Below, piece after piece: positions 8,508-19,120 of a stretch of 64,000 nucleotides of DNA. A program made the position numbers and the translations under genes. The notes below the pieces were generated by a model. The model had not been told where the DNA came from and did no database searches. It saw only the letters and a list, made by a program, of their open reading frames with translations. Origin of the DNA: an uncultured Lachnospiraceae bacterium (lineage in GTDB: Bacteria > Bacillota > Clostridia > Lachnospirales > Lachnospiraceae); the NCBI GenBank assembly GCA_905233955.1, contig CAJOFQ010000002.1, positions 68,594-132,593 of the forward strand, in the 5' to 3' direction. The number at the start of each line of letters is the position of its first letter. Position 1 is the stretch's first letter.

Positions 8508-11500
8508 TCAGTGAAAATACTCTACTCCCGACTCAAACAGCTTCATATCCTTATTGCCGTAGATATTCTTCATCACATTCTTTCCAATCCTCTCTGAATG
8601 ACACATCTTGCCGAAAACTCTGCCATCAGGACTTGTAATACCCTCAATTGCATAATATGATCCATTGATATTCCAAGGCTCGGCCATAGTACATGTTCCA
8701 TTTTCGTCAACATATCTTGTTGCTATCTGTCCGTTTTCATAAAGCCGCTTTATTGTGGCATCATCTGCGACAAACCTGCCCTCTCCATGGGAGGCCGGGA
8801 TGGAATACACTTCATCTAACCCTGCTTTTGAAAGCCAGGGTGAAAGATTGCTTACAACCTTGGTATAGGCAACCTTGGCCACATGCCTGCCTATAGTGTT
8901 ATATGTTAATGTAGGAGAATTCTCCTCCTGAGGACATATTCTGCCATATGGAACGAGTCCCAGCTTGATCAGCGCCTGGAAGCCGTTACAAATTCCCAGT
9001 ACCAATCCGTCTCTCTCATTTAAGAGACGCATAAACGACTCTTTTATCTTTTCATTTCTGAATACAGTAGAAAAGAATTTGGCGCTTCCTTCCGGTTCAT
9101 CTCCGGCAGAAAAACCTCCCGGGAAGAAAACAATCTGCGAATTGTCTATCACCCTGCAAAACTCTTCTACTGAATCTGAGATGTCACTCTTGTTCTGGTT
9201 GCAAAATACTACTGTTTTTGTATCTGCTCCCGCGGTATCAAAAACCTTTTTGCTGTCATATTCACAATTTGTCCCGAAAAATACCGGGATAAATACCTGC
9301 GGCCTGGCGGTCTTATGCTTGTTGATATATATTTCTTTGGCATTGAAAGGCTGATTCATCTGGTTCCACAGATTGCTGCCTTCTACACTTCTATCTACCT
9401 TCGTCTTAGTATGGAATACTCCCTCTAACGGCTCCTCCCACGCTGTAATTGCATCCTCTAATGAACATACAACATCTTTGAATCTAAATTCAGCTTCATC
9501 CGTTACTATAGCTATATATTTTGCCAGGTCAGAAAGCCCCTGCAAATCAATATACTCTGATACCTCAGACTGATGCTCCTTTTTAATCTCAAGGATAAGA
9601 GAGCCTGTCTGTGGAGCAAACAATTCATCAACAGATATGGCTGCATCATCGAATGCAATTCCAAATCCATTGCCAAACGCCATTTTGGCTGCAGCGGCAA
9701 AAACACCGTATCCATCTACTGCATAGGCAGATTGTATAAGGGACCTCTGCATAAGCTTATGTACAAGATCATATAAGCTTGAGGCACTGTCATAATCTAT
9801 GACATCGTATTCATCTCTCTTTACACTAAGCAAAAGCAACAGATTACCAGCCTGCTTAAGCTCCGGGGTTATAATGTCATTGTCACTAGCAGTATCCACC
9901 GCAAATGAAACCAAAGTCGGAGGAACATCTATATCATTAAAGCTTCCTGACATAGAATCCTTGCCTCCAATGGATGGCAGTCCAAATCCCATCTGTGCCG
10001 CATACGCGCCTAATAACGCTGCTACAGGCTGACTCCATCTGGCCGGATCTTCACTCATCCTTCTAAAATATTCCTGGAATGAAAATCTGATCTTCCTGTG
10101 GTCGCCTCCACTGGCAACAATTCTTGCAATCGACTCAGTAACCGCGTATATGGCTCCATGATAAGGGCTCCACGAAGAAAGGTATGGATCGAAGCCATAA
10201 GCCATCATGGATACCGCATCAGAGCTGCCATTTTCTACGGGGAATTTTGCAGCCATCGACTGAACAGGAGTAGCCTGATGTCTGCCTCCATAAGGCACAA
10301 GCACACTTCCGGCGCCTATGGAGCTGTCAAACATCTCCACCAGTCCCTTTTGATCAGCGACATTCAGATCAGAAAGAACATGCAAAAACGCATCCCTTAT
10401 ACGATTATCTGCTATATCACTGCAGACCTTGGGAATGGGATTGTGCATGAAATAATTATCCTTTTGGGAAGGACTCTCGACATATACATCCGTTTCCTGA
10501 TGTGCTCCGTTAGTATTCAAAAACGCCCGTGACAGATCTACGATTTTTTCTCCATGCCATTTTAGCACAAGTCTTGGCTCATCGGTTACAACAGCAACCT
10601 GTGTTGCCTCCAGGTTCTCCTGCCTGGCATACTTAAGGAAAGCCTCTGTATCCTTAGGATCTATAACCACAGCCATACGCTCCTGGGACTCGGAAATAGC
10701 AAGCTCCGTTCCATCCAGACCCATATATTTTTTTGGAACCTTGTCCAAATCTATATCCAGACCATCTGCCAGCTCGCCAATCGCTACAGAGACTCCGCCT
10801 GCTCCAAAATCGTTGCATTTTTTTATGAGGACACTGACCTCTTCTCTGCGGAATAATCTCTGGAGCTTTCTCTCTGTAGGAGGATTACCCTTTTGAACCT
10901 CAGCCCCGCATTCAACCGTAGATGATGTGTCATGTGCCTTGGATGAGCCTGTCGCCCCTCCTATGCCATCCCTTCCGGTTCGGCCTCCCAATAGAATAAT
11001 TATATCTCCAGGATCCGAAGTAAGGCGTCTTACTGCACGCCTGGGAGCAGCACCTACTACAGCTCCTATCTCCATTCGCTTTGCTACATAATCCTTGTGG
11101 TAGATTTCATGAACATATCCTGTAGCCAGGCCTATCTGGTTGCCATATGAGCTGTAACCATGGGCTGCCTCACGGACTATCTTCATCTGAGGAAGCTTGC
11201 CTTCCATAGGCTTTTCAACTGCAAATCTCGTTGGATCGGCTGCCCCCGTTATACGCATTGCCTGATATACATATGTCCGCCCTGACAACGGATCTCTGAT
11301 GGCTCCTCCAAGGCATGTTGCAGCTCCTCCAAACGGCTCGATCTCAGTTGGATGGTTGTGAGTCTCATTTTTAAAATTTAATAACCACTCTTCATTTTTT
11401 CCATCTACCTCAATCGGTACCACAATGGAGCATGCGTTAATCTCGTCAGTATCCTCCTGATCTTCCAGCATTCCCATGGATTTCAGCTTCCTGGCCGCCA

Positions 11501-12400: not shown

Positions 12401-12429
12401 CTAAGAGGAACAGCTTGCAAAAAGAAAGA

Positions 12430-12454
12430 AGCCTGCACAATTACTGTGCAGGCT
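12430..12454 (-). terminator. Intrinsic terminator of the thl...etfA operon
   Basis: Perfect 10-bp stem AGCCTGCACA-ATTAC-TGTGCAGGCT, followed on the minus strand by TTCTTTCTTTTT, directly downstream of etfA. Confidence 0.9.
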
Positions 12455-12492
12455 CCCTTGCCGTATCCTTGTTACAAGCTATGCTCTATGCC

Positions 12493-13536
12493 TTATTTAG
12501 CCTGAGCCTTGATAGCATCTGTAAGCATAGGAACAATTTTGTTCAAATCACCAACAAGACCATAATCAGCAACATCGAAAATCGGAGCTGTATCATCCTT
12601 GTTGATAGCAATAATAATATCAGATTCTTCCATACCTGCTACATGCTGGATGGCACCTGAAATACCAATAGCAAAATATACATTAGGCCTTACAGTCTTA
12701 CCTGTCTGACCAACCTGCATGTCCTTGGGCTTCCAGCCACTGTCCACTACTGCACGAGAGCAGGAAACAGTTCCGCCTATTGCATCCGCAAGATCCTCTA
12801 ACAGCTTGAAGTTCTCAGGGCTTCCAACTCCACGGCCGCCTGATACCAGAATCTTAGCTTCTGAAATATCAACTGTCTTGGATACTTCCTTAACAACCTC
12901 GAGAATCTCTACATAGCGGTTGTTCTCGTCAAAATCAGGCTTGAACTCAACTACCTCAGCCTTGGCACCCTTGTTAGGCTCAATCTTCTGCATTACGCCA
13001 GGGCGAACTGTAGCCATCTGAGGACGGTTATCCGGGCATGCAATAGTAGCGATAGTATTACCACCAAAAGCAGGACGAGTCATCAGAAGCTGATTCTCTT
13101 TTGTCTTGCCATCTCCCGGCGTACCATTAAGCGGGAAGTTACCTATATCCAGTGATGTACAGTCAGCAGTCAATCCTGTTGCAACTCTGGCTGATACTGT
13201 AGGTCCAAGATCGCGTCCGATAGCTGTAGCGCCAACCAGAACTATCTCGGGCTTAAACTCATTAATAACACCTGCAAGTGCCTGTGCATAAGGCTCTGTA
13301 CGGTATATCTCAAGCTTGGGATCATCTACAACAATAACCTTATCTGCGCCATATTCTGCGAGAGAATCTGCAAGATCCTTGACGCCTGATCCAAGCAGCA
13401 CTGCTGCTACCTCAACTCCGCCAAGATCCTTTGCCAGATCTCTGGCCTTGCCCAGCAGCTCAAATGCGATATTGTCCAGCTTGTTATCTACCTGCTGTGC
13501 AAATATATATACTCCTTTGTAATCCTCTAATGCCAT
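12493..13536 (-). CDS. etfA: Electron transfer flavoprotein alpha subunit
   Basis: EtfA FAD-binding signature (PNVYFAIGISGAIQHVAGMEESDIIIAINKDDTAPIFDVADYGLVGDL). Confidence 0.97.
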   Translation of the reverse strand: MALEDYKGVYIFAQQVDNKLDNIAFELLGKARDLAKDLGGVEVAAVLLGSGVKDLADSLAEYGADKVIVVDDPKLEIYRTEPYAQALAGVINEFKPEIVLVGATAIGRDLGPTVSARVATGLTADCTSLDIGNFPLNGTPGDGKTKENQLLMTRPAFGGNTIATIACPDNRPQMATVRPGVMQKIEPNKGAKAEVVEFKPDFDENNRYVEILEVVKEVSKTVDISEAKILVSGGRGVGSPENFKLLEDLADAIGGTVSCSRAVVDSGWKPKDMQVGQTGKTVRPNVYFAIGISGAIQHVAGMEESDIIIAINKDDTAPIFDVADYGLVGDLNKIVPMLTDAIKAQAK

Positions 13537-13566
13537 TACAACATCCTCCTCATTCGTCTGCTGTCA

Positions 13567-14358
13567 TCAAATAACATGCTTCTCTAAAAGCTTGCCCATT
13601 ATGTAGTCTACTGATTCCTTCGGATCGAGACTAACCTTCTCGCCGGCTCCCTTTCTTACCTTGTCAGAAGCCTTGGCAATCTTAGTGGGTGAACCTGCCA
13701 AACCAATGTTAGCATCGTCCAGATCCTTTAAGTCGTTGCGGCCCCAAACGGTAACTTCCTTCTCATCATAGGCATCAAAGATTCCGCCGGGTGTCATATA
13801 ACGAGGCTCATTAAGCTCTGCCAACGCGGTAATAAGGCAGGGCATCTTAGCCTTGAGCATGTGGTAACGATCCTCATACTGACGCTTTACAACAACAGAG
13901 TCACCTTCGATCTTAAGCTCCTCTGCGTAGGAAATTACAGGCAATCCCAAATGCTCAGCGATCTGAGGTCCAACCTGAGCTGTATCACCATCTATTGCCT
14001 GACGGCCTGTGATGATAAGATCATAGTCAATATTTCTAAGACCTGCTGCAATTGTAGATGATGTAGCCCATGTGTCAGCTCCGCCAAGCACACGATCTGT
14101 AATCAGAACACCCTTGTCAGCTCCCATAGCCATTGCTTCACGAAGTACATCGTCAGCCTTGGGTAATCCCATTGTAAGTGCTGTAACCTCAACATTATCA
14201 GGATCGGAATCCTTGATTCGAAGAGCAGCCTCCAATCCGGCTTTGTCATCCGGATTCATGATAGAAAGCATAGCTGCACGGTTCAATGTTCCATCCGGGT
14301 TGAACTGTACGCCGCCCGCAGTGTCCGGAACCTGTTTAATACAAACTACTATTTTCAT
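13567..14358 (-). CDS. etfB: Electron transfer flavoprotein beta subunit
   Basis: MKIVVCIKQVPDT, MNPDDKAGLEAALRI, TGRQAIDGDTAQVGPQIAEHLGLP; adjacent to bcd and etfA. Confidence 0.97.
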   Translation of the reverse strand: MKIVVCIKQVPDTAGGVQFNPDGTLNRAAMLSIMNPDDKAGLEAALRIKDSDPDNVEVTALTMGLPKADDVLREAMAMGADKGVLITDRVLGGADTWATSSTIAAGLRNIDYDLIITGRQAIDGDTAQVGPQIAEHLGLPVISYAEELKIEGDSVVVKRQYEDRYHMLKAKMPCLITALAELNEPRYMTPGGIFDAYDEKEVTVWGRNDLKDLDDANIGLAGSPTKIAKASDKVRKGAGEKVSLDPKESVDYIMGKLLEKHVI

Positions 14359-14394
14359 ATTATATTAATACCTCCTATTTATTCTACGCGCGGT

Positions 14395-15546
14395 TTACTT
14401 CAATAATGCTCCTGAAATAACCATTCTCTGAACTTCAGATGTTCCTTCGTAAATCTCAGTGATCTTGGCATCGCGCATCATACGCTCTACATCGTACTCT
14501 CTGGTGTAACCATATCCGCCGTGAAGCTGAACAGCCTTGGTGGTGACTGCCATTGCTGCTTCTGCTGCAAAAAGCTTGGCCTGTGCTGCTTCAACTGAAT
14601 AAACCTTCTGTGTAGCCTTAGCCTGTGCTGCACGATATACCATGAACTGAGCAGCCTGCATACGGGTCGCCATATCAGCCAGAGTAAACTGGGTATTCTG
14701 GAATGCGGATATAGGACGGCCAAACTGCTTTCTCTCCTTAACGAAGTCGATGGCGCACTGCAGTGCTCCCTCACCTATACCAAGTGCCTGAGCGGCAATT
14801 CCGATACGACCGCCATCAAGAGTATGCATGGCAATACCAAAGCCCTTGCCTCTGGGCCCTAAGATATTCTCCTTGGGAATGCGGCAGTCCTCGAAGATAA
14901 GCTCATATGTGGATGAACCACGGATACCCATCTTCTTCTCCTTGGTACCAAATGAGAAACCAGGTGTTCCCTTCTCAACAATAAAAGCTGAAAAACGCTT
15001 CTGAGGACCACGCTTGCCTTCAACTATATCTGTTACGGCAAAGATGATATAAACATCAGCTTCCTTACCATTGGTGATAAAGCACTTTGTACCATTAAGT
15101 ACCCACTCATCGCCATCTTCAACAGCCTTAGTCTGTGCTCCCTGGGCATCAGTACCTGCACCAGGCTCAGTAAGGGCAAAAGCTCCAAGCTTCTGACCAC
15201 TTGCAAGGGGAACCAGATACTTCTGCTTCTGCTCTTCCGTACCGTAGGTCAGGATAGGATCGCAGCAAAGAGAAGTATGAGCTGAAACGATAACGCCTGT
15301 AGTACCGCAAACCTTTGATAACTCCTCAACACACATAACATATGTCAGAGGGTCAGCACCCTGTCCGCCATACTCCTTGGGGATAGGTATACCCATAAAA
15401 CCGGCCTTCTGCATCTTGGTAACCGTCTCACGCGGGAAAACCTCTGTCTCGTCTGTTTCCTGTGCAAGAGGCTTTGCTTCTTTTTCGGCAAACTCTGCAA
15501 AGAGAGTCCTGGCCATTTCATGTTTTTTATCTAATAAAAAATCCAT
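14395..15546 (-). CDS. bcd: Butyryl-CoA dehydrogenase (short-chain acyl-CoA dehydrogenase)
   Basis: ACAD motifs (GAFALTEPGAGTDA, CFITNGKEADVYIIFA, QLHGGYGYTREYDVERMMRDAKI). ATG at 15546 (MDFLLDKKHEM) follows GGAGG and is preferred to the track start at 15588. Confidence 0.96.
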   Translation of the reverse strand: MDFLLDKKHEMARTLFAEFAEKEAKPLAQETDETEVFPRETVTKMQKAGFMGIPIPKEYGGQGADPLTYVMCVEELSKVCGTTGVIVSAHTSLCCDPILTYGTEEQKQKYLVPLASGQKLGAFALTEPGAGTDAQGAQTKAVEDGDEWVLNGTKCFITNGKEADVYIIFAVTDIVEGKRGPQKRFSAFIVEKGTPGFSFGTKEKKMGIRGSSTYELIFEDCRIPKENILGPRGKGFGIAMHTLDGGRIGIAAQALGIGEGALQCAIDFVKERKQFGRPISAFQNTQFTLADMATRMQAAQFMVYRAAQAKATQKVYSVEAAQAKLFAAEAAMAVTTKAVQLHGGYGYTREYDVERMMRDAKITEIYEGTSEVQRMVISGALLK

Positions 15547-15588
15547 GCTTGTTTTTCCTCCATTATTTATTCTATAGTGATGCGACAC

Positions 15589-16458
15589 TTATGCATCCAT
15601 GGGTGTCTTGGTACGGTCAGCATTGTAGATATAGAAGCCCTTGCCTGACTTAACTCCCAAGTTACCTCCACGAACCATCTTGCGAAGCAGAGGACATGCA
15701 CGATATTTGCTGTCACCTGTCTCATTGTACAAAACATCCATAATTGCAAGGCAGATGTCCAGTCCGATGAAATCACCCAGCTCTAACGGTCCCATAGGAT
15801 GGTTAGCACCGAGCTTCATAGCTGTATCAATACCAGCTACATCTGATACGCCTTCCATCTTGATGAAGGCAGCTTCGTTAATAAGAGGGATCAGGATTCT
15901 GTTAACAACAAATCCTGCTGCCTCATTAACCTGAACAGGAGTCTTGCCGATCTCTTCTGAGATCTTCTTGATGCAGGCTACTGTATCATCAGGTGTATTA
16001 ACGCCTGCAATAACCTCAATAAGCTTCATACGGTCTGCCGGATTGAAGAAATGCATTCCGATCATAGGGCGTGAAAGACCGTTTCCAATCTCTGTTATGG
16101 AAAGTGATGATGTGTTAGAAGCGAATACACAGGAATCCTTGCAGATCTCATCCAGCTCCTTAAATGTAGTCTTCTTGACATCCATATCCTCGAAAGCAGC
16201 CTCAACGATAAGATCACAATCCTTACACAGATCCTCTTTAAGACCGGGTGTGATGCTGGCAAGGATGCCATCAACCTTAGCCTGATCCATCTTGCCCTTT
16301 TCTACCAGTCTGGCGTAGCCCTTTGCAATCTTATCCTTGCCGCCCTCTGCCCATTCCTGCTTAATGTCGCAAAGTGCAACCTCATAGCCGTCAACCTGTG
16401 CAAAGGCCTTGGCGATGCCCTGACCCATTGTGCCGGCGCCGATTACTCCAACCTTCAT
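15589..16458 (-). CDS. hbd: 3-hydroxybutyryl-CoA dehydrogenase
   Basis: GAGTMGQGIA Rossmann motif, GMHFFNPADRMKLIEVI, NRILIPLINEA, GPLELGDFIGLDICL. Confidence 0.97.
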   Translation of the reverse strand: MKVGVIGAGTMGQGIAKAFAQVDGYEVALCDIKQEWAEGGKDKIAKGYARLVEKGKMDQAKVDGILASITPGLKEDLCKDCDLIVEAAFEDMDVKKTTFKELDEICKDSCVFASNTSSLSITEIGNGLSRPMIGMHFFNPADRMKLIEVIAGVNTPDDTVACIKKISEEIGKTPVQVNEAAGFVVNRILIPLINEAAFIKMEGVSDVAGIDTAMKLGANHPMGPLELGDFIGLDICLAIMDVLYNETGDSKYRACPLLRKMVRGGNLGVKSGKGFYIYNADRTKTPMDA

Positions 16459-16681: not shown

Positions 16682-17878
16682 TCAGTCACGCTCTACAATT
16701 GTAGCGCAGCCCATGCCGCCGCCAATGCAAAGTGTAGCAAGACCCTTCTTGGCATCCTTCTTCTGCATCTCGTGAAGCAGAGTAACTAAGATACGGCATC
16801 CGGAAGCTCCTACAGGATGTCCGAGAGCAATAGCTCCGCCATTAGGATTGAGCTGTCTTGCCACATCAATTCCCAGATCCTTGCCAACTGCAACAGACTG
16901 AGCAGCAAATGCTTCATTAGCCTCGATGATATCAAAATCACCAATCTTCATACCGGTCTTGTCCATAACCTTGTTAACAGCAGCAACAGGTCCGATACCC
17001 ATAACCTCAGGACGAACGCCTGCTAATGCTCCTGCTACGAAGGTAGCCATAGGCTTAACACCAAGCTCATTAGCCTTCTCTTCGCTCATAACTACAACTG
17101 CTGCAGCACCATCATTGATACCAGATGCATTACCAGCTGTTACAAATCCGTCCTTGTTAATAGGACGCATTCCTGCAAGCTTCTCTAATGTGACTGTAGG
17201 TCTGGGGCCTTCATCGGTGTCAAATACTACTGTATCTCTCTTAACCTTAACCTCAACCGGAACAATCTCATCCTTGAAAGCGCCTGCCTCCATAGCAGCC
17301 TTGCACTTCTGCTGGCTGTTGTAAGCAAACTCATCAAGCTCTTCACGGGTAAGATTCCATTCCTTGCAGATATTATCTGCTGTCTGAATCATATGATAAT
17401 CATTAAATGCATCCCAAAGAGCGTCCTTAACCATGGTATCTACAAGACCACCCTTGCTGGCTGAAGGCCACATCATACGATAACCGTAACGACCCTGAGG
17501 AAGGGCAAAAGGAGCCATGGACATACTCTCCATACCTCCGGCAACAACAACATCCGCGTCGCCTGCCATAATCATCTGAGCAGCCTGGTTAACACAGTTA
17601 AGGCCGGAACCACAAACAACATTGGTAGTTACTGCCGGTACTTCAACCGGAAGTCCTGCTTTGATGGAAGCCTGACGAGCAACATTCTGACCAAGACCTG
17701 CCTGGATTACGCATCCCATGTATACATGCTCAACCTGGTCACCTGAGATACCTGCACGGTTAAGTGCTTCCTTGATAACGATAGCGCCAAGATCAACAGC
17801 CGGGGTATTGCCAAGGCTTCCGCCCATAGTACCAATAGCTGTACGGCATGCACCTGCTAGAACTACTTTTTTTGCCAT
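16682..17878 (-). CDS. thl: Acetyl-CoA C-acetyltransferase (thiolase)
   Basis: Thiolase motifs ([56 protein letters not shown]). ATG at 17878 (MAKKVVLAG) after AAGGAGAAAGAC preferred. Confidence 0.97.
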
Positions 17879-17942
17879 GTCTTTCTCCTTTTCTTGTTTG
17901 TTACGGTCTAAATGTACAATTATGGCTAAATTGCACAAATAG

Positions 17943-17994
17943 AACAGACTTCTGTTACTTCAACATCAAAAATGATAACATAACAGAGGTCTGT
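17943..17994. promoter_or_regulatory. Two operator-like dyads upstream of thl
   Basis: AACAGA-CT-TCTGTT at 17943-17956 and ACAGA-GG-TCTGT at 17983-17994, centres 39 bp apart; one in the promoter spacer, one just downstream of the predicted TSS. Confidence 0.6.
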
Positions 17995-18000
17995 ATTCAA
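17972..18000 (-). promoter_or_regulatory. Sigma-A-type promoter of the butyrate operon
   Basis: Minus strand TTGAAT-17 nt-TATCAT upstream of thl; spacer contains the dyad ACAGACCTCTGT. Confidence 0.7.
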
Positions 18001-18053: not shown

Positions 18054-19040
18054 TCAATTATCACGGCTGCTGTATTTCATCATGATAATTTCTACGCCGA
18101 TTTGCGGATCAATAAGGCCGGTTTTTATCCGGGCCTCAACATTGCCGGCATCCTTTATAAGCTGGCGTAGCTCCTCCATCCTGAAATTACCTGCCAGCAT
18201 CTGGTTTTTCCTGATAAAATACGGCCTTATACCGGCTGATCTTGCTATAACGCTGTCAGGCTCCCGGCGGTCTGTCATTTCTTTTACCACAAGCAGTTTT
18301 ATAAACTGACTCCTTAATATGGCAATTATCTTCAGAGGTTCTTCCTTTCTCAGAAGAAGGTCCCTATAAGCATTCATAGCCCCTGTGGAATCCTTTTTTG
18401 CTATGAATTCCAGCATTTCGAAGATCCTGTCCTCCGCAACGGCCGGACAGCATACTGATATATCCTCCTCTGTGATTGCTTCCTGTCCCTGGCAGTATGA
18501 AATCAGCTTGTCTATCTCATTAGACATTCTGTCCATTGAATCCCCTGCCCTATTGTAAAACATCTGCCAGGCCTGAGAATTCATGGAAAGATTTGCATTT
18601 TTTGTCCGTTTTGAAATCCATCCATACAGCGCTCTCTCATCGGGCAGATTAAGCTCCTCAACATCACCGTGTTTTTGAACAGCTTTATAAAGTGAAGTCC
18701 TTTTGTCAACTTTTTTCTCCGTAAAAATCAGGTATGCAGTTTCCGGAAGAGATTTAATATATTCTGTAAGCGTGGGGCATTTTTTATTAAACAGCCCTCC
18801 GTCCTCACAAACTATAAGCCTGCTGGAGGCAAAAAAGGGCATAGTATCCGCTGCTTCTATGATCGCAGATTCGCTGCACTGTGAATCCTTAAGGTGGGTA
18901 ATATTAATATCGCTGTCATCAGGACGAAGGGCTTGTGTCAATGTTTTGCGATAACCCCGGATCAGATAGCTTTCCTGGCCATATAACAGATATATGTGCT
19001 TGAATGATTTGTTTTTGATATCTGAATCTATTGTACGCAT
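18054..19040 (-). CDS. holA: DNA polymerase III subunit delta
   Basis: HolA-like sequence (IYLLYGQESYLIRGYRKTL...LIVCEDGGLF...YLIFTEKKVDKRTSLYKAV). Track start is GTG at 19070; ATG at 19040 also possible. Confidence 0.88.
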   Translation of the reverse strand: MRTIDSDIKNKSFKHIYLLYGQESYLIRGYRKTLTQALRPDDSDINITHLKDSQCSESAIIEAADTMPFFASSRLIVCEDGGLFNKKCPTLTEYIKSLPETAYLIFTEKKVDKRTSLYKAVQKHGDVEELNLPDERALYGWISKRTKNANLSMNSQAWQMFYNRAGDSMDRMSNEIDKLISYCQGQEAITEEDISVCCPAVAEDRIFEMLEFIAKKDSTGAMNAYRDLLLRKEEPLKIIAILRSQFIKLLVVKEMTDRREPDSVIARSAGIRPYFIRKNQMLAGNFRMEELRQLIKDAGNVEARIKTGLIDPQIGVEIIMMKYSSRDN

Positions 19041-19060
19041 GTCGTTACCATATAGTGATG

Positions 19061-19120
19061 CGAGGGTCACAAAGTCTCAAATTATTGCGCAAGCGCATAA
19101 TTTGGACCTTTTGACCCTTG
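19061..19120. repeat. 60-nt imperfect inverted repeat (long hairpin)
   Basis: 24 potential base pairs in four helices (19061-69/19112-20, 19071-74/19108-11, 19078-84/19098-104, 19086-89/19094-97) closing a CAAG tetraloop; no adjacent U-tract. Confidence 0.85.

Follow-up and report, generated by a model that had tools for sequence, protein, structure and literature searches.

The window, that is, the entire 64-kb stretch of DNA analysed here, carries thl and the further genes of the butyrate operon on its minus strand, with holA located upstream of thl. The features of the locus are as follows:

12425-12459, minus strand: intrinsic terminator of the ordinary type that follows etfA and served as a yardstick for comparison
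12493-16458, minus strand: hbd, bcd, etfB and etfA of the butyrate operon
16682-17878, minus strand: thl, acetyl-CoA C-acetyltransferase, with an ATG start and a GGAGA ribosome site
17935-17943, minus strand: T-rich tail TCTATTTGT, weak in the window
17944-17957, minus strand: right arm TAACAGAAGTCTGT of an inverted repeat, at about +10 to +23 of the predicted thl mRNA
17958-17980, minus strand: loop (23 nt) of the putative hairpin, containing the -10 element and the predicted transcription start of thl, which the spacing places at about 17966
17972-17977, minus strand: -10 element TATCAT within the loop, an extended -10 with TG one base upstream
17981-17994, minus strand: left arm ACAGACCTCTGTTA, within the -35/-10 spacer, pairing and covarying with the right arm in all four readable genomes of the genus
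17995-18000, minus strand: -35 element TTGAAT of the thl promoter, with TTGnnn at the equal position in the same four genomes and in most of the family
18054-19070, minus strand: holA, co-directional with thl, its stop about 60 bp before the left arm

An initial annotation of this DNA had described a thl promoter with two matched dyads. Re-reading of the sequence and a promoter scan reproduced its letters and coordinates exactly: TTGAAT (18000-17995) and TATCAT (17977-17972) are separated by 17 nt on the minus strand, and the dyads, AACAGACTTCTGTT at 17943-17956 and ACAGAGGTCTGT at 17983-17994 (both plus strand), lie 39 bp apart from centre to centre. The promoter itself was borne out by comparison with related genomes. 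A homologous promoter of the form TTGnnn, 16-18 nt, -10 was present in 90 of the 101 Lachnospiraceae thl upstream regions, where shuffles led us to expect 12.9, and alignment of the family promoters on the -10 element showed that they have an extended -10, TATGnTAnnAT, in common. Because of this distribution and the shared extended -10, the window promoter is, as judged from the alignments, the family-wide and ancestral thl promoter, in the spacer of which the left arm resides.

What the initial annotation had missed is a single longer inverted repeat that joins the two dyads. Both are arms of ACAGACCTCTGTTA - 23 nt - TAACAGAAGTCTGT (minus strand, 17994-17944), the dyad at 17983-17994 belonging to the left arm and that at 17943-17956 to the right arm, and the arms pair at 13 of 14 positions with one mismatch. 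With up to two mismatches, AACAGANNTCTGTT occurred seven times in the window as compared to 2.96 expected occurrences. Comparable inverted repeats (score of at least 11, loop of 15-35 nt) were encountered twice in the 64-kb window and not at all in four local shuffles, while only 1 of 200 dinucleotide shuffles of the 250-bp thl upstream region reached an inverted repeat of equal quality. Similar repeats are common between genes, with about 39 outside long ORFs in 846 kb of the window's genome. The inverted repeat is therefore unlikely to be due to chance, yet it is no unique object in the genome.

The genus of the window comprises six genomes (G000-G005), and the thl promoter was readable in four of them, namely G000 (the window), G001, G002 and G005. 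The left and right arms read ACAGACCTCTGTTA and TAACAGAAGTCTGT in G000, AAAGACCTTCTTA and TAAGAAGGTCTTT in G001, AGACCCTCTTA and TAAGAGGGTCT in G002, and TAGACCCTTGT and ACAGGGGTCTA in G005. G005 had lost the self-palindrome of the dyad and G001 and G002 had it in weak form, whereas arm-to-arm pairing was kept in all four. Predicted RNA folds of the arm pairs had energies of -16.0 to -20.7 kcal/mol (z -4.0 to -6.4), and no shuffle equalled them. When G-U pairs were disallowed, the G005 repeat was unexceptional, being matched by 38 of 200 shuffles; with G-U pairs its fold had a z of -4.6.

Since a MAFFT alignment misplaced the arms, covariation was assessed in a structural alignment of the four genomes, two of which are close. 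This alignment was made by hand, anchored on the -35 and -10 elements and adjusted by eye to match the structure, a procedure that favours a stem, while the left arm is independently fixed by the promoter. Two-sided changes were observed at column pairs 9-60 (CG/UA/AU), 15-54 (UA/CG), 16-53 (CG/UA with UG) and 17-52 (UA/CG), together with a paired deletion at columns 18-51. Furthermore, RNAalifold returned one 14-pair stem with an energy of -16.2, as compared to -0.7 ± 1.0 for the column-shuffle null. A T-rich tail was found on the thl-sense side in all four genomes and in none on the opposite side; it was strong in G002 and G005 (TCTTTTTTT and TTTTTTTGA, respectively), moderate in G001 and weak in the window, though its score of 2.24 there is similar to the 2.32 of the etfA terminator. 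A repressor that recognises DNA should keep its site constant and pairing predicts covariation, and because covariation was observed, the conserved property, complementarity of the arms with compensatory changes, speaks for base pairing and against recognition by a protein. Palindromes that flank a -10 element should accordingly be checked for arm-to-arm covariation before they are named operators.

The gene upstream of thl was co-directional in all four genomes, although its identity differed: holA in G000, a peptidase-like gene in G001 and G002, and ilvN in G005. No separate terminator was found between the upstream gene and thl in G000, G001 and G002; in G005, a weak extra terminator-like hairpin was seen at the ilvN stop. 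We propose, with a probability of roughly two in three, that the dyads form the opposite sides of a single RNA hairpin, which serves as an intrinsic terminator for holA and holds the thl -10 element and start in its loop. Read-through transcription from holA would copy both arms, and the resulting RNA would fold into a hairpin of 13-14 bp followed by a U-rich stretch, so that transcription would presumably terminate before thl. A polymerase engaged at the thl promoter would start inside the loop. Its transcript would contain the right arm only and should escape both hairpin formation and termination, because the left arm is positioned upstream of the predicted start. By the same token, as the promoter spacer contains the left arm, both arms would be carried only by read-through RNA from the upstream gene. 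The initial annotation had argued that the arms cannot share one mRNA; this is true for the thl mRNA, but it overlooks the read-through RNA from holA.

The proposed element resembles an intrinsic terminator in its stable stem, its closing pairs AGACC/GGUCU and the co-directional gene just upstream. It also has a U-rich tail on one side, which is weak in the window and to that extent counts against a terminator. It differs in its loop of 23-25 nt, which is long as compared to the usual few bases, likewise counts against a terminator, and encloses the -10 element and the start of the operon that follows. Elsewhere in the window's genome, gene ends also carried hairpins with long loops and T tails. 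A related arrangement is the frd/ampC overlap of Escherichia coli, where the ampC attenuator also serves as the frd terminator; that hairpin is situated entirely past the ampC start and attenuates ampC too. In both cases one hairpin would end the upstream operon within the control region of the next, but at thl the left arm precedes the start, and thl should therefore escape. In a partial search of the literature, we found no description of a promoter nested in a terminator loop. Such nesting would insulate the butyrate operon from its neighbour, and could provide a compact means of insulating adjacent operons in general, as the terminator would act on incoming polymerase and spare the polymerase that starts there.

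A comparable arrangement was seen in G164, a genome of another genus that does have Rex. There the thl -10 element is flanked by 15-nt arms, AAACACCGCTATGTT and AACGTAGCGGTGTTT, with a fold of -22.7 kcal/mol. The gene upstream of thl is co-directional in G164, no separate terminator was found between the two, and there is no clear T tail. In relatives that share this upstream gene (G356, G234, G249, G205, G363 and G108), a separate terminator occupies the interval from the gene's stop to thl, and this complementary distribution fits a terminator role for the nested hairpin. Across the family, with the window's genus included, brackets around the thl -10 were little above control (10% versus 6% at score 9). 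Likewise, no clear genome-wide enrichment of promoter-in-loop hairpins with a T tail was detected in 846 kb of the window's genome (7 sense versus 5 antisense), and promoter nesting is not a genome-wide device. A look-alike between prfC and recA was rejected, since it looks like a conventional terminator that contains an inner stem, and recA is apparently served by a separate promoter with a LexA-like box; at this locus (L175, about 9470-9660), a long two-stem terminator follows prfC, and the LexA-like sequence CGAACAATTGTTCG lies beside the recA promoter.

The initial annotation had interpreted the dyads as a DNA operator covered by a repressor. On this view, a dimeric protein would bind both palindromes and block access to the spacer and to the region around the start. 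The presence of two near-perfect dyads that match each other, the first within the spacer and the second immediately past the start, would suit such an operator, and with Rex control gone another regulator is conceivable. However, the congeners kept the complementarity of the arms and neither the dyad sequence nor its self-palindrome, so that the repressor claim was not sustained. The annotation had made its operator depend on dyad conservation upstream of orthologous thl genes, and ACAGANNTCTGT was absent at thl in G001, G002 and G005. Nor did the genome search that it had suggested reveal a regulon: the three other exact ACAGANNTCTGT sites all lie inside genes (radA-like, dapF and an unnamed ORF), and no other intergenic dyad copy was found in the assembly, which is 66% complete. 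The neighbours of thl that were inspected included no regulator gene, and a double-dyad scan of the whole collection (84,980 genomes) returned four other records, two of which (L036 and L038) were inspected and proved to be repeats unrelated to thl. We thus regard an operator as unlikely. Slightly less likely still is a leader attenuator, for which a second, upstream start would give a longer thl mRNA with both arms, and a signal would switch the hairpin. The nearest outgroups G063, G335 and G379 lend this some plausibility, since they have a compact hairpin and a T-run just after the start, but neither inspection by eye nor scans revealed a conserved promoter ahead of the left arm in the congeners, and Rfam matches at the site were weak, none of them meaningful.

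Pairing could also take place in the DNA itself, as a cruciform or as an invertible segment carrying the -10 element. The arms indeed remain matched as inverted repeats, but this would leave the one-sided T tail unexplained; moreover, the segment has a single orientation in all four congeners, and the 23-25 bp between the arms are very short for site-specific inversion. We find this explanation barely credible. A chance repeat without function is very improbable: intergenic repeats of this kind are no rarity in the window's genome, but this one has been kept with compensatory change in four genomes. The evidence as a whole thus favours the terminator with a nested promoter.

The initial annotation had also remarked that the motif is not of the Rex type. 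It was right, because gene and site are both missing: the Rex gene was detected in none of the six genomes of the genus (G000-G005), two of which are 93% complete, and the best match to a Rex box at thl in the window scored 10.5, below the 95% shuffle level of 12.0. Of 397 family genomes, 349 have Rex, as do the four nearest outgroup genomes, and most family thl promoters have a Rex-type box just after the start. Occurrence of the box tracked that of the Rex gene: at score 12.5, a box was present in 55 of 77 Rex-positive regions versus 3 of 24 Rex-negative ones (Fisher p 4.5e-7, which is a guide only as the genomes are related). In 846 kb of the window's genome, one Rex-like site was counted, versus three in shuffles. 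In related genera, the Rex operator of Clostridia (TTGTTAA-N4-TTAACAA) occupies the equal promoter region of thl, directly past the start, but it is absent here. The genus thus seemingly makes butyrate from the usual thl promoter without Rex. Other Rex-negative genera (G007, G009, G363 and G208) likewise had no Rex box at thl. It is conceivable, but quite improbable, that the nested hairpin has a role beyond insulation and has replaced Rex control in a pairing-dependent manner, with upstream read-through through the promoter setting the output of the butyrate operon. If true, loss of Rex would have been followed by control coupled to upstream transcription.

Several minor observations were made along the way. 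A second possible thl-leader hairpin, TGTGCAATT-TAGCCAT-AATTGTACA, lies at about 17910-17937 of the window (minus strand) and, among the four congeners, occurs only in this genome. In the thl leaders of the nearest outgroups (L039, L040 and L041), a compact hairpin near +1 is followed by a T-run and then by a Rex box; the arrangement looks like a leader terminator or attenuator before the butyrate operon. Lastly, six similar interspersed hairpins, GGGTCACAAAGTC...GACCTTTTGACCC, were found in 846 kb of the window's genome:

window, 19064-19117
L140, 17872-17926
L141, 2981-3034
L151, 12011-12064
L165, 10245-10298
L178, 975-1028

The window copy is located just upstream of holA and matches the Clostridiales-1 RNA with 28.9 bits, below the cut-off, while the copy in L140 overlaps a match to the same RNA (RF01699, 78 bits) that lies next to tmRNA.
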